DNA from: a virus
DNA: 24,731 nt
Virus record (IMG/VR): IMGVR_UViG_3300022542_000121
Location: 1 to 24,731 of that record
Direction: 5' to 3' (one strand)
Shown here: positions 11,241 through 24,731 of the stretch, piece after piece
How the letters are laid out: every line of letters begins with the position of its first letter
How positions within the stretch are numbered: position 1 is the first letter of the stretch
Notes under the pieces: generated by a model
What the model saw: the letters and a program-made list of their open reading frames with translations, nothing else
Told to the model about the DNA's origin: nothing
The model's database searches: none
Made by a program: the position numbers and the translations under genes

Positions 11241-11702
11241 TTAGTTAGTGCCTTTTGCTTTAGGCGTGATTGTTAAAGTCCAACCAGCATTTATATTAAT
11301 CAATGCTGTAGTTAATAAACTTTCAATTGCAAATAAATAACCTTGTCTTGAATTACAGTTATCTAATTGAATTTCAGCCGTCAAAGTCTGAACCAGAGCA
11401 TTGCTTGAATCAACGGCAAAAGTTGCAAGTAATTGTTGCTTATTGGTTAAAGATGGAAATTTCTCACTATTAACCCCATCTACCAAATTTTTACTTGCAT
11501 ATAATTTGATTGTGTCACCAGCAGTAGGAGCTAATGATGGTGTGAATGTTAATATAGCAGTTGCCAAATCAACATTATCGTTATTGACCCATTCATTGAC
11601 GTCACCAACAACAGAGAATGTTGATAATGCAACCAATGCACTAGCGTTACTTACTACATCAGCAACTCCAAAACCTTCTCTTTCATCGTTTCTGTTAAGC
11701 AT
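11241..11702 (-). CDS. Capsid-adjacent structural protein, possibly decoration
   Basis: A 153-residue protein directly downstream of the major capsid gene and its terminator. It has an alternating Ala/Ser/Thr/Leu pattern with many short strands (ATAILTFTPSLAPTAGDTIK near residues 48-67) and ends TLTITPKAKGTN. The position, size and beta-rich composition suggest a capsid surface protein. AAAGG lies about nine bases upstream of the ATG. No family was recognised. Confidence 0.5.
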   Translation of the reverse strand: MLNRNDEREGFGVADVVSNASALVALSTFSVVGDVNEWVNNDNVDLATAILTFTPSLAPTAGDTIKLYASKNLVDGVNSEKFPSLTNKQQLLATFAVDSSNALVQTLTAEIQLDNCNSRQGYLFAIESLLTTALININAGWTLTITPKAKGTN

Positions 11703-19005: not shown

Positions 19006-19067
19006 GTCATTTACTCCAAATTAATTTTAAAAGAAGAGGTTAAAAAAATTTCTAACCTCAATTTTAA

Positions 19068-19589
19068 CTAAGCTTGTAAGCCTGAAAAAAATGATTGATA
19101 TGCTAAGAACTCCTCAAAATATTCCACTCTATGTGGAGCAGAAGCAATCAATCCAGAGTTCAATAGTTCATCATGTGAGAAGTCTGGATTGTTTTGAATC
19201 CAGTTTGCAATCTCTCCCATATATCCAGAGTTATTAAACTGTTTAAATTTCTTGCTTGCTGTCACTGTAGACTTACTCACACCTGAAAAATCAGTGATTG
19301 CTTTCTGTTTTTCACTTTCTGATAAGCTTGAAATATCCAGAGATTTTGCAAGCTCTGCAATGTCTAAAAAGTGGGTTATTGTTTTGCCCTTCACATGTTC
19401 TTGTACTTTAGCCTTCAATTTTTCAGGGGTTAAAATCCACTCATTTTTAATACCTACACTATTAATAGTTTCTTGGATTTTCATAACTGGAATACCCAGA
19501 GAAAACAATTTATTTGCAGTATCATCTAATGATAAAGCCTTATTGAAATGTTGGTCTACAACTTTTGTAATTTCTTTAATGTTTTTCAT
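19068..19589 (-). CDS. 173-aa protein, paralogue of the divergent 190-aa protein
   Basis: I start at ATG 19587-19589, with AAGG eight bases upstream; a GTG three codons earlier overlaps that ribosome site. Residues 28-64 (LFSLGIPVMKIQETIN, then ILTPEKLKAKVQE) align without gaps with residues 27-63 of the 190-aa protein encoded at 20206-20778. The C-terminal parts also match loosely (GYMGEIANWIQNNPDF here). The middle (TDFSGVSKSTVTASKKFKQF, residues 99-118) could be a helix-turn-helix-like unit. It has its own extended -10 promoter and faces away from the other gene. A DNA-binding or regulatory role is inference. Confidence 0.75.
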   Translation of the reverse strand: MKNIKEITKVVDQHFNKALSLDDTANKLFSLGIPVMKIQETINSVGIKNEWILTPEKLKAKVQEHVKGKTITHFLDIAELAKSLDISSLSESEKQKAITDFSGVSKSTVTASKKFKQFNNSGYMGEIANWIQNNPDFSHDELLNSGLIASAPHRVEYFEEFLAYQSFFSGLQA

Positions 19590-19645
19590 AATTTTCACCT
19601 TATGTTAAGAGATAACTTACAGGCTTTTGCCTTGCTCTTGTGTTT

Positions 19646-19673
19646 ATTATAGCAGGTTAAAAACATTTTGCAC
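19646..19673 (-). promoter_or_regulatory. Promoter of the 173-aa gene
   Basis: On the complement: GTGCAA (19668-19673), a 16-base spacer, TATAAT (19646-19651) preceded by TGC (extended -10). The start point would be near 19639, about 50 bases before the ATG. Confidence 0.75.
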
Positions 19674-19754
19674 TGTTTTAAAGTGTTATTTATAAAAATA
19701 ATGTAATTAATTTAACGTTGAAAAAATCACTAGTTGGCACAAAAATTGCCCACC

Positions 19755-19795
19755 AAAAATCATGCCAAGTTTCAAAAAATCAAAAATCATGCCAA
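19755..19795 (+). repeat. 14-bp direct repeat, two copies
   Basis: AAAAATCATGCCAA occurs at 19755-19768 and 19782-19795, a period of 27 bases. Confidence 0.9.
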
Positions 19796-19865
19796 CTCCA
19801 AAAGCGTAACGGACGGAACGTCAAAAATACACCTACCAAAAGCGTCGTCTGAAAATGGCTATTTC

Positions 19866-19964
19866 TCTATATGCGTATCCGCCTAACGCTCCCAACCGTC
19901 AAATTGTTTTAGTTAAATATGCAGCGTCCGTAACATAAAAATATCTATATGCGTATCCGCCTAA
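19866..19964 (+). repeat. 21-bp direct repeat, two copies
   Basis: Two identical 21-base copies at 19866-19886 and 19944-19964 (core ATATGCGTATCCGCCTAA), 78 bases apart. They are GC-richer than their surroundings. Confidence 0.92.
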
Positions 19965-20009
19965 AATTTTTGATGCTCAAATCTATTTATAAATAAATGA
20001 GAAATATAG

Positions 20010-20037
20010 TTGATACGTTTGAGTTTTATGTTATACT
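20010..20037 (+). promoter_or_regulatory. Upstream rightward promoter
   Basis: TTGATA (20010-20015), a 16-base spacer, TATACT (20032-20037) preceded by TGT (extended -10). It lies 116 bases upstream of a stronger promoter for the same gene, so transcription may start at two points. Confidence 0.6.
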
Positions 20038-20125
20038 CCATCCTGAAAGTTTTATTTAGTTTTATAGTAGTTTATAGCAAGAACGCATAAGGCAAAATAG
20101 TTTGCTGAGTGTAATAGAAATTATG

Positions 20126-20154
20126 TTGCAATCGCTTAAATATTGTGATATAAT
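20126..20154 (+). promoter_or_regulatory. Promoter of the 190-aa gene
   Basis: TTGCAA (20126-20131), a 17-base spacer, TATAAT (20149-20154). The hexamers and spacing are identical to those of the late promoter. The start point would be about 20161, at the edge of a CTGGAA/TTCCAG palindrome (20162-20175). Confidence 0.85.
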
Positions 20155-20161
20155 CTCAAAA

Positions 20162-20175
20162 CTGGAATTTTCCAG
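20162..20175. promoter_or_regulatory. Palindrome at the 190-aa transcript start
   Basis: CTGGAA and TTCCAG are separated by two T residues, directly at the expected transcription start. It may be an operator, or a stem-loop at the 5' end of the mRNA that protects it from decay. Confidence 0.5.
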
Positions 20176-20205
20176 AAATCAAACCTTAAACGGGAGATAC
20201 AAATC

Positions 20206-20778
20206 ATGGGTAAGAAAGAAAATACTGCCATTATCGTAAATGGCTTCAAAGAAGGTAAAAGTGACGATGCTATTCTTCAAGAACTTTTTGAAACTGGCAT
20301 TCCATTTGGTGAATTGCGTACAACCTTTAATGACATCATTAAAGATAAAGGTCTTCGCTTAACTAGCAAAGAGCGCAAAGAAAAGACTGTTGAATTGATG
20401 GAAGGCGTTACAGAAGTTGCTTCTGTTGAAGATATGGCTAAGATCGTTGCCAAACTTGCCAAATCTTTGAAGGTTGCAGAAAGCAAGGCAATGGGATCGC
20501 TACGCACTTGGGCTAAAGGGGCTGGAATTGAATTACCAAAAGCTCCACGAGTTGTTAAAGCTCGCAAAGCAGGGTTTGGTGGTCATTATGGCAAGATTCT
20601 GAAATTCATCTTGGACAACCGTGAAGCTGACAAGAAAGCAGTTGTTGCATTCTGTCATAAAGAAAGTATCCCAGAAGCTTACTCTACTCAAGCATTGAAC
20701 GTTGTTCACTTTGCTAAAGTATGGAATGGCGATATCACTTGGGACGCTGATGAAACAGAAAATGAAGCTGCTAAATAA
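20206..20778 (+). CDS. 190-aa basic protein, paralogue of the divergent 173-aa protein
   Basis: A protein rich in Lys and Glu with a GGGAG ribosome site nine bases before the ATG. Residues 27-63 (LFETGIPFGELRTTFN, LTSKERKEKTVE) align ungapped with the 173-aa protein. Residues about 95-125 are strongly basic (PKAPRVVKARKAGFGGHYGK, 111-130), suggesting nucleic-acid binding, and the tail is acidic (DADETENEAAK). It is a single-gene transcript with a near-consensus promoter and a strong terminator, so it is probably abundant. A DNA-binding or nucleoid-type role is inference; I do not recognise the family. Confidence 0.8.
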   Translation: MGKKENTAIIVNGFKEGKSDDAILQELFETGIPFGELRTTFNDIIKDKGLRLTSKERKEKTVELMEGVTEVASVEDMAKIVAKLAKSLKVAESKAMGSLRTWAKGAGIELPKAPRVVKARKAGFGGHYGKILKFILDNREADKKAVVAFCHKESIPEAYSTQALNVVHFAKVWNGDITWDADETENEAAK

Positions 20779-20804: not shown

Positions 20805-20830
20805 AAGGACTCTTTGGAGTCCTTTTTTAT
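20805..20830 (+). terminator. Terminator of the 190-aa gene
   Basis: AAGGACTC (20805-20812) and GAGTCCTT (20817-20824) pair perfectly around TTTG, followed by a T run. Confidence 0.92.
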
Positions 20831-21172: not shown

Positions 21173-21190
21173 CGGGGAAAGGTGAAAATT

Positions 21191-21586
21191 ATGAAATATT
21201 TATCTGATTATATGAATGATAAGCAATCAGCGCTATTCAAATCTACAGGAGCTTTTTTCGCATTCAGTCAAAAGCAATTTGATGAAGCCAAGGTTAAGGA
21301 CGTAGTTTACAATACTCTTGGCACTGGAATGATTTGTCCTAAAGAACGTGTTGATGAATTACTTGCTGGTTTAGAAACAATCTATGATGACGCTGTTAAG
21401 CTTGACATAGCAGAAAATGGGGTCAAGGCTATTATACATAGAGAGCTAGGCAATCACGAGTGTCAGATAACGAATGACACAAGTAATGTTGTAGATAACC
21501 TTGAGCCGTATGGTATTACAGAAGAACAGATAACCGCAGAATGGCCTGAATTCTATCAGAAGTGCGTTAAGAATGACTGGTTTTAG
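21191..21586 (+). CDS. DUF7659-like phage protein, unknown function
   Basis: A 131-residue protein. I start at ATG 21191-21193 with AAAGG eight bases before it, not at a GTG three codons upstream inside the ribosome site. The segment LFKSTGAFFAFSQKQFDEAK (residues about 14-33), then GTGMICPKERVDELLAGLE, is the pattern I associate with DUF7659 proteins of phages, which have no known activity. The C-terminal part (ITEEQITAEWPEFYQKCVKN) is helical. It overlaps the next gene by 14 bases. Confidence 0.7.
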   Translation: MKYLSDYMNDKQSALFKSTGAFFAFSQKQFDEAKVKDVVYNTLGTGMICPKERVDELLAGLETIYDDAVKLDIAENGVKAIIHRELGNHECQITNDTSNVVDNLEPYGITEEQITAEWPEFYQKCVKNDWF

Positions 21587-22317: not shown

Positions 22318-22989
22318 ATGTCAACACAAGATAAAGAAAACAGAATTATCGATAAGATTAGAAAGCTATTTGCACTAGCCAATGACAAAGGTGCAACTGG
22401 TGCAGAATCAGAGAATGCATTAAGAATGGCTAATGCTATGTTATCCAAGCACTCACTTGAAATGAGCCAACTGACAGGCCACGATGAAACAGTGTTCTGT
22501 ACATTTGCTGAGTACAACCTCAAGACTCCCGGTAGTATGACAATCATTGGAGCAATCAGTAGATTCTATAACTGCCGTATTATCTTTGACTATAACTGGC
22601 CTGAACCAAAATCTCTAATCATTGGTACTGGCGCCAACAGAATGACAGCCACCATTGTTATCGACCAGTTGATTGACCAGATTAAGAAAGAGTGTAAAGG
22701 TGAGAATGCCGCATTTAAACAAGGGGCAGCAGATGGCCTCGCAGAAGTATGTAGAAGAATCACTACTGAACGTAACAAGGATACCACAGAGATACTGCCG
22801 GGTACTGGCCTAATGGTCATAGACCAGAAGAAGCAGCAGTTGGCCGCAGCAAGTGCATTTGTAGATGCAAACTTTGCAAACCTCAAGAATACCAAGAGAA
22901 AGAAAGGTAGCGCTGAGGGTAGAGCATACGGACAAGGACTAAACCCCGGTGCTAGAGTTGGTGGTGAAGGTCAACGGAGGCTAACATGA
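22318..22989 (+). CDS. DUF2786 domain protein
   Basis: A 223-residue protein. Residues about 6-50 (IIDKIRKLFALANDKGATGA, then ENALRMANAMLSKHSLEM) match the DUF2786 pattern: a helical domain found in many phage and bacterial proteins with no proven function. Residues 60-180 hold the usual following region (GAISRFYNCRIIFDYNWPEP, then IIGTGANRMTATIVIDQLID), which I associate with DUF7168. The C-terminus is basic and Gly-rich (NTKRKKGSAEGRAYGQGLNP), possibly nucleic-acid binding. AGGTGA lies ahead of the ATG. The family call is good; the role is unknown. Confidence 0.82.
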   Translation: MSTQDKENRIIDKIRKLFALANDKGATGAESENALRMANAMLSKHSLEMSQLTGHDETVFCTFAEYNLKTPGSMTIIGAISRFYNCRIIFDYNWPEPKSLIIGTGANRMTATIVIDQLIDQIKKECKGENAAFKQGAADGLAEVCRRITTERNKDTTEILPGTGLMVIDQKKQQLAAASAFVDANFANLKNTKRKKGSAEGRAYGQGLNPGARVGGEGQRRLT

Positions 22990-23595: not shown

Positions 23596-23778
23596 TCATG
23601 TCGTTTTTGACCCAACACTTTTCGATGATGTATAGCTAGGATGGAGAATGACGACTAAACCCGAGAGCTTGGATATATCATCATCAACAGTTACTTTATG
23701 GACTGACACTGGCATTTCTTTATTTTCAGCCACTTCAATCGCTTTTTTAATTCTTTTAATCAGTGAATCGTAACTCAT
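23596..23778 (-). CDS. 60-aa hypothetical protein
   Basis: A basic small protein (SYDSLIKRIKKAIEVAENKE, then VHKVTVDDDISKLSGLVVIL). It starts in a TAATG overlap with the upstream gene, which supports translation. The helix-strand layout suggests a compact domain, with no motif recognised. Confidence 0.58.
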   Translation of the reverse strand: MSYDSLIKRIKKAIEVAENKEMPVSVHKVTVDDDISKLSGLVVILHPSYTSSKSVGSKTT

Positions 23779-24371
23779 TACTTATTCTCAATCTTCTCAA
23801 GTGTTGCCAAAAGTTTAGGCAACTGTTGTAAGTTGAACCCAGATGATATTAACGCCATATATTCCTTGGCATCAGCTATTGTGATGTTACCTTGTGATAC
23901 GCTTGTTAGCACTTGATTTATTTGGTCATCGATAGTCTTGCCTTTCAAATCCATCATAGGCGCAGGATTATCAGTTCTGCTAATTATTTCTTTTATGACG
24001 CCCCAAATTTCTCTTTTAGCCCAAGATTCGTTATCTGTGTCTTTAGTAGTATTTTTCTTCTTCCCATTTGCCAGCGCAATCATTTCATCAATTAAGGGAG
24101 CAGCGCCTTCCAAGAAGTTTTTCTTCATCTTAACGGGGTCAGACATAAGTTCAGCATGTTTGGCGGCTTTAAGTTTTTGTAATGAGATGTACTCGGAGTC
24201 AGAGAAATCAGATTTCTGAATATCTGTTAATTCTTCCCAGTATAACGCTGCCAGTACCTTCTTGTCGCAGACATCAAGATTTCCCCATTCACTTAACCAA
24301 TGTCGCTCCCACATGAGGTATATTTTGTTATCTCCTGTTCCGAGGTTGATTCCTGTTTTTTTATCTGTCAT
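23778..24371 (-). CDS. Candidate terminase small subunit or related phage protein
   Basis: I start at ATG 24369-24371 (197 residues). A TTG twelve codons earlier is open but has no ribosome site, and the ATG itself has only a weak one. After an N-terminal segment (LMWERHWLSEWGNLDVCDKK) and a middle helical region, the C-terminus (IDDQINQVLTSVSQGNITIA, then AKEYMALISSGFNLQQLPKL) resembles the tail of small terminase or DUF5681-type proteins. Small terminases recognise the packaging site; one is missing next to terL. It could equally be another regulatory protein. No clear helix-turn-helix is visible, so the call is tentative. Confidence 0.4.
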   Translation of the reverse strand: MTDKKTGINLGTGDNKIYLMWERHWLSEWGNLDVCDKKVLAALYWEELTDIQKSDFSDSEYISLQKLKAAKHAELMSDPVKMKKNFLEGAAPLIDEMIALANGKKKNTTKDTDNESWAKREIWGVIKEIISRTDNPAPMMDLKGKTIDDQINQVLTSVSQGNITIADAKEYMALISSGFNLQQLPKLLATLEKIENK

Positions 24372-24731
24372 GCCCGTTTCTCGCTTGTTATTGTCGCTTA
24401 TTGTCAAAATTTACCCGATTAGGGGTCTAAGTCCAAAGGTGTACCCAAGGTGTACACAAAAAATGGTGAAGAATGGTAAAAGGTAACCTAAAGGTAACCC
24501 GAAAGTTACGGTCTAAGTTGTTGTTTTTATTACATATTGTCAAAAGGTGTACCTCTTAATAGTGATTTGAACATAATTAGCATACCAGACGCTTTTATTT
24601 TTTTTTATGTTAATCGGGGATTAGCACAATAGGCGGCCGCCGGGTTACCTTTTTGGAAAACCGGGTTACCTTTATTTTTTCTATCTGAATATCAACAACT
24701 TGCAGCACATTCATTAAGGTTACCTTTAGGG
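24372..24731. other. Right-end region with GGTTACC and GGTGTACC repeats
   Basis: 360 bases with no convincing gene. AAGGTGTAC-type sites lie at 24435-24446, 24446-24457 and 24542-24553; AAAGGTAACC sites at 24479-24488 and 24490-24499; and the reverse, GGTTACCTTT, at 24643-24652, 24664-24673 and 24718-24727. A GC-rich palindrome containing a NotI site lies at 24632-24641. It resembles a cluster of protein-binding sites. Confidence 0.6.

Follow-up and report, generated by a model that had tools for sequence, protein, structure and literature searches.

Proteins A and B, encoded by two divergent genes of a phage contig, are true paralogues and anciently separated members of one undescribed, all-helical phage protein family. 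Computation places the wider family (here called F) as a single gene in the replication module of other phages; in the lineage studied here a different ORF stands in that slot, and A and B diverge, beside the terminase gene, from a conserved non-coding region (hereafter the hub) that carries an array of 15-bp repeats and conserved promoters of B. The reading that we favour, tentatively and at something short of an even chance, is that A and B bind DNA and do their work at this hub, where a regulatory role is somewhat more probable than an origin.

Genomic Setting of the Divergent Pair

The window (the whole stretch of DNA that was analysed, 24,731 nucleotides) is a virus record of 24.7 kb with the appearance of a contig from a tailed phage. 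On the left, the structural genes form a leftward block (tail, capsid, portal, TerL, RusA), and beyond it a few genes run rightward in a short block (B, DUF7659, DUF2786 and others); the junction of the two blocks is flanked by A and B, and both ORFs have the coordinates and sizes reported in the preliminary description of this DNA:

19068 to 19589, minus strand: gene of protein A, 173 aa, start ATG at 19589; all-helical (AlphaFold pLDDT 84), a fast-evolving member of the family
20206 to 20778, plus strand: gene of protein B, 190 aa; three tri-helical units (AlphaFold pLDDT 77), closer to the wider F family

The DUF2786 and DUF7659 proteins (window positions 22318-22989 and 21182-21586, respectively), neither of known function, adjoin B here and are also present in relatives. 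A search of Rfam gave no family above threshold, and no tRNA was found.

A and B Are Paralogues

BLASTP aligns A with B over 151 columns at 25% identity (E = 8e-8), and their Smith-Waterman score is 104, where none of 3000 shuffles exceeded 66 (Gumbel p = 5.6e-8); taken separately, the first 70 aa reach p = 2e-7 and the remainder p = 1e-3. The proposal of a duplicated pair, which depended on significant profile similarity between the two proteins, is borne out at this level as well, as four A sequences compared with four B sequences in hhalign give E = 2.8e-7. The gapless match already pointed out between them (LF-x2-GIP-x6-T-x-N...LT) is readily visible and the similarity ascribed to about 37 residues is real, but that length is too short, since the BLASTP alignment makes the similarity nearly full length. 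The GIP of the window pair is not general: other A proteins have GV(K/A)F and other B proteins G(I/V)(P/A)F.

Besides that of the window, complete A-B pairs are found in four related IMG/VR contigs, two of which (G002 and G003) are near copies, leaving three distinct loci; the genes are divergent and their order is unchanged in 4/4. Identity to the window proteins is 64-81% for the related A proteins and 72-82% for the related B proteins, and both are under purifying selection (dN 0.13-0.32, dS 0.66-2.3 where estimable). More distant relatives were reached through TerL; in four of these an A homologue lies upstream of that gene, on contigs that end before the B side could appear. In an unrooted tree, A, B and the wider family form three well-supported groups, and the duplication is thus older than the divergence of the window lineage. 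A candidate for a second paralogue at the end of L063 (BLAST E = 0.001) had no profile support and was withdrawn.

Convergence of two helical, K/E-rich sequences, in place of common descent, could be suspected from the low identity and from the mevalonate kinase that the B profile picks up (E = 9e-6), a chance hit on a K/E-rich helical stretch that was rejected and that illustrates how composition can mislead; it is nevertheless the most improbable of the explanations considered here, as A and B are collinear over 130-150 residues, both have profile links to family F, and their structural models share the same best match.

A Protein Family of the Replication Module

In agreement with their earlier designation as uncharacterised, A and B have no significant family model in any library searched (Pfam, PHROGs, NCBIfam); direct tblastn of both against phages returned nothing usable, even at E 10, and scans of bacterial genomes returned no relative of either. 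The HMM of B, however, finds SS1_35 (AIK67539.1) of Cronobacter phage vB_CsaP_Ss1 and QVJ07738.1 of Vibrio phage vB_ValP_VA-RY-3, and a scan with these two proteins leads to 21 IMG/VR loci, all of which are recovered by the B profile (21/21, best score 47 bits). A profile built from F alone (17 sequences) detects B in 4/4 contigs at 49-53 bits and, with E up to 1 allowed, matches nothing else in a set of 2160 ORFs, while hhalign gives E = 7e-11 for F against B and E = 5e-6 for F against A. On the strength of this profile similarity, which spans most of their length, A and B are assigned to the unnamed phage family F. A match of psageB2 falls in an unrelated gene and was dismissed.

The members from cultured phages, SS1_35, QVJ07738.1 and XPN40777.1 (Vibrio phage PVA7), are all annotated as hypothetical proteins, and a search of the literature on Ss1 and VA-RY-3 found nothing on these genes. 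They are homologous to A and B over most of their length at about 20% identity, and the order of their helical units, judged from the alignment, matches; unlike A and B, they are single-copy genes in the replication module, with neither a divergent partner nor a repeat array. Ss1, VA-RY-3, PVA7 and two contigs also encode a second, shorter relative (SS1_01), which has only the C-terminal unit in common with SS1_35. Proteins of this kind (SS1_01, S1R3Y_000008) are encoded near the terminase gene, rather like B, but differ in their N-terminal part and have no recognisable direct similarity to A or B; those at L057:6119-6781 and L058:100-723 have the C-terminal unit alone in common with the family and lie near the terminase gene of those phages.

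The profile search and the comparison of neighbourhoods that had been suggested as a check yielded a usual genome slot along with the wider family. F is encoded once per phage, between a RadD-like helicase and the genes for SS1_34, thymidylate synthase (ThyX), an exonuclease and PolIII, in the order Sak4 - SSB - Cas4 - helicase - F - (SS1_34 - ThyX) - exonuclease - PolIII - ligase. Several contigs are incomplete at their ends and some are without SS1_34 or ThyX; wherever both flanks are present, F lies between the helicase and the polymerase-side genes. A and B are not in this slot and lie by the terminase gene. The 72.7-kb relative of the window (G004) has the replication module, with a methyltransferase-like ORF, judged by eye, occupying the F slot in its helicase-SS1_34 gap (L018:5764-6226), and in that genome the family profile picks out A and B alone.

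A Conserved Non-Coding Hub with a Repeat Array

The space between A and B, which measures about 600-990 bp across the lineage, was previously described as filled with repeats, and this is confirmed; its elements in the window are as follows:

19590 to 20205: A-B intergenic region, 616 bp, conserved and non-coding; 74% identity with G003 over the aligned part, conserved blocks also in G001 and G004
19734 to 19748, plus strand: 15-bp repeat, copy 1, TTGGCACAAAAATTG
19754 to 19768, minus strand: 15-bp repeat, copy 2, TTGGCATGATTTTTG
19781 to 19795, minus strand: 15-bp repeat, copy 3, TTGGCATGATTTTTG
19806 to 19820, plus strand: GTAACGGACGGAACG element, one copy, position kept in 4/4 relatives with at most one mismatch
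19866 to 19886, plus strand: second repeat family, TCTATATGCGTATCCGCCTAA, copy 1; two copies also in G001 and G003, absent from G004
19944 to 19964, plus strand: second repeat family, TCTATATGCGTATCCGCCTAA, copy 2, 78 bp from copy 1

The 15-bp repeat, with the core TTGGCAYGATTTTTG and copies in both orientations, is present in 5/5 genomes in which the hub could be checked; at three to seven copies per genome it makes up, like iterons, a cluster of short repeats in non-coding DNA. Copies with at most one mismatch number two in the window, three in G001, two in G003, seven in G004 and four in L030, where the A side alone of the hub is available; these 18 close copies in five hubs compare with about zero expected from shuffles (at most 0.007 per hub), and the window hub has a third, weaker copy in addition. 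Two scattered matches occur in 467 kb of other phage loci. No array was found near the F genes of F phages, which leaves binding sites other than this 15-mer possible there. The second repeat family, TCTATATGCGTATCCGCCTAA, occurs twice per hub in 3/4 aligned genomes. Being conserved, the repeat region is probably functional. An ORF of 50 aa at 19734-19886 has G003 as its sole match and was set aside as a reflection of DNA conservation, not a gene.

A few further elements were observed in relatives. Outside its hub, G001 has two close copies and one weaker copy of the 15-bp repeat downstream of A (L023:11607-11660), the near copies at 11607-11642, and G003 has one copy (L024:7368) before the homologue of window 23778-24407. 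The hub of G001 also contains a near-perfect palindrome, TTTACAGTGTT...AACACTGTAAA (L023:12547-12591), a possible operator that other relatives repeat in part close to their A promoter.

Promoters, Hairpins, and Putative Terminators

A strong promoter and a terminator had been attributed to each gene, and sigma-70-like promoters are indeed present for both, as are terminator-like hairpins after both:

19646 to 19673, minus strand: A promoter, GTGCAA - 16 - TATAAT (TATAAT at 19646-19651), TG before the -10
20010 to 20037, plus strand: B distal promoter, TTGATA - 16 - TATACT, conserved in four relatives
20126 to 20154, plus strand: B proximal promoter, TTGCAA - 17 - TATAAT, conserved in 4/4 aligned relatives
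20162 to 20175, plus strand: 5' hairpin at the expected start of the B mRNA, CTGGA-ATTT-TCCAG; shape conserved, loop changed in G004
19036 to 19059, minus strand: terminator-like hairpin after A
20805 to 20830 (hairpin to 20824), plus strand: terminator-like hairpin after B, AAGGACTC-TTTG-GAGTCCTT plus a T run; the scan puts this hairpin on the minus strand, and the plus-strand T run was read by eye

The succession of an own promoter and a 5' hairpin is found for B in 4/4 and also for A and many F genes, with hairpins of different sequence, which points to a feature of the mRNA, not an operator. The palindrome CTGGAATTTTCCAG was considered as an operator and rejected on the same grounds: it falls where the mRNA is expected to begin, and there other family genes have hairpins of another sequence, so an mRNA hairpin is likelier. 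The 15-bp repeats themselves lie over neither set of promoters, being located about 60 bp beyond the -35 of A and more than 200 bp from the first promoter of B.

Predicted Structures and Presumed Abundance of A and B

Structure prediction, which had been called for, gives all-helical AlphaFold models with tri-helical units; in B, the three units comprise residues 3-48, 54-106 and 127-173. The segment at residues 52-111 has weak matches to folds of the HTH type, the best being DriD, Lrp and homeodomains at a Z of at most 6.0, and values up to 6.0 are common for small helical bundles. In terms of likeness to known proteins, the tri-helical units weakly resemble the tandem tri-helical repeats of RecX (fold Z 4.7-5.6) and the HTH domains of DriD, Lrp and similar regulators (Z 4.7-6.0), but A and B match none of these by sequence family (for RecX, no Pfam match), and no HTH family model of Pfam, PHROGs or NCBIfam fits them significantly. 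Neither the comparison with solved structures nor Foldseek against the PDB yielded a convincing fold for either protein. The best viral structural match is common to the A and B models, a 193-aa protein found with a probability of 1.00; the alignments of the two models share rows, so this agreement is not fully independent. As QVJ07738.1 is also 193 aa long and is homologous to B, it is probably the protein in question.

Codon use (0.62 for A and 0.65 for B) is nearer to that of the coat genes than is the case for close neighbours (0.43-0.54), in a comparison whose reference set is small and partly circular. Together with the promoters, it suggests that A and B are abundant proteins. A is slightly acidic, with a pI of 6.5.

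Possible Roles at the Hub

DNA binding by A and B is plausible in view of the HTH-like units, the tie between pair and array, and the replication context of the family. In the mechanism that we favour, A and B would be made in quantity from strong sigma-70 promoters and would bind DNA through their HTH-like tri-helical units; one or both might recognise the TTGGCAYGATTTTTG array, and this binding could set the expression of the divergent pair and mark the hub for the phage's own transcription or replication. Points that count against this mechanism are the weakness of the fold matches, the slight acidity of A and the position of the repeats off the promoters. The preliminary description had spoken of a duplicated regulator pair: the duplication, across conserved repeats, is upheld, whereas regulation is a putative role for a family that is usually represented by one gene of the replication module. 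A more elaborate version, in which a replication-module protein was copied to the structural/early junction and the diverged pair reads the 15-mer array, timing the change from replication to packaging, is a speculative long shot.

Among the alternatives, A and B may instead be abundant replication accessory factors, such as coating proteins, processivity factors or recombination mediators, that bind DNA or protein, the array belonging to another protein of host or phage. The absence of an array near the F genes allows it to serve another protein, and the accessory role suits both the constant place of F between helicase and polymerase-side genes and its layout in many phages, where it is a unit apart that has a promoter and a 5' hairpin to itself. 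It would, however, leave as coincidence the presence of the array in every A genome that is readable for more than about 200 bp upstream, and we regard it as unlikely, though a serious contender.

A non-coding hub with repeated sites, or with divergent genes around it, recalls iteron origins and divergent repressor pairs of the lambda CI/Cro type. The hub could accordingly be a replication origin, with the 15-bp repeats as iterons and A, B or both as the origin-binding protein or an accessory. It resembles iteron origins in having repeated sites in non-coding DNA, namely clustered, non-palindromic 15-mers in both orientations with further conserved elements in an AT-rich stretch, although any origin activity here is putative; the replication-module context of the family fits as well, and the minimum of the cumulative GC skew of the window falls in the hub. 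The longer genome of G004 (72.7 kb) speaks against it, its skew minimum lying at 11.5 kb, where the replication operon begins, with the hub no more than a local dip; skew also follows gene direction, and no array adjoins the F genes. Origin binding, as first proposed, is therefore not sustained by the skew of this relative, and we consider the origin a rather doubtful candidate.

Control of an early-late switch had been proposed too, and A and B could form a lambda-like divergent repressor pair governing that switch or the choice between lysis and lysogeny. The genes are indeed divergent, with their own promoters and a shared region between them, and late structural genes lie on the side of A and small opposite-strand genes on the side of B. 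Unlike pairs of the lambda CI/Cro type, however, A and B are paralogues within a family that normally contributes a single gene among replication genes, and the candidate sites (repeats at 19734-19795) lie off the promoters (19646-19673 and 20010-20154). Codon use and promoters point to abundant proteins, and no repressor family is matched. This role is improbable, and the family's usual context and the predicted abundance weigh against a pure switch regulator of the kind proposed earlier.

Finally, the 15-bp repeats might be promoters of the sigma-54 type (-24/-12, TGGCAYG-N4-TTGC) by which host RpoN drives the hub, as their consensus fits the -24 element and the spacing, several copies being exactly TGGCAYG-N4-TTGCW; but while the GG at -24 is conserved, the C of the -12 GC is kept in only 9/24 copies, and the copies that have it face B in some genomes and A in others, two facts that hold this reading at a very low probability, good sigma-70 promoters being present and a search of six phage records, with E up to 10 allowed, finding no sigma-54 DNA-binding domain (PF04552), which it does find in control genomes.

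Significance for the Family and the Lineage

An unnamed family linked to replication genes in many uncultured and three cultured phages is tied, in one lineage, to a specific DNA repeat. If a family protein does bind the 15-mer, a blank gene of a conserved replication module would gain a function, and the window lineage would illustrate how a replication gene can become a pair of divergent control genes.
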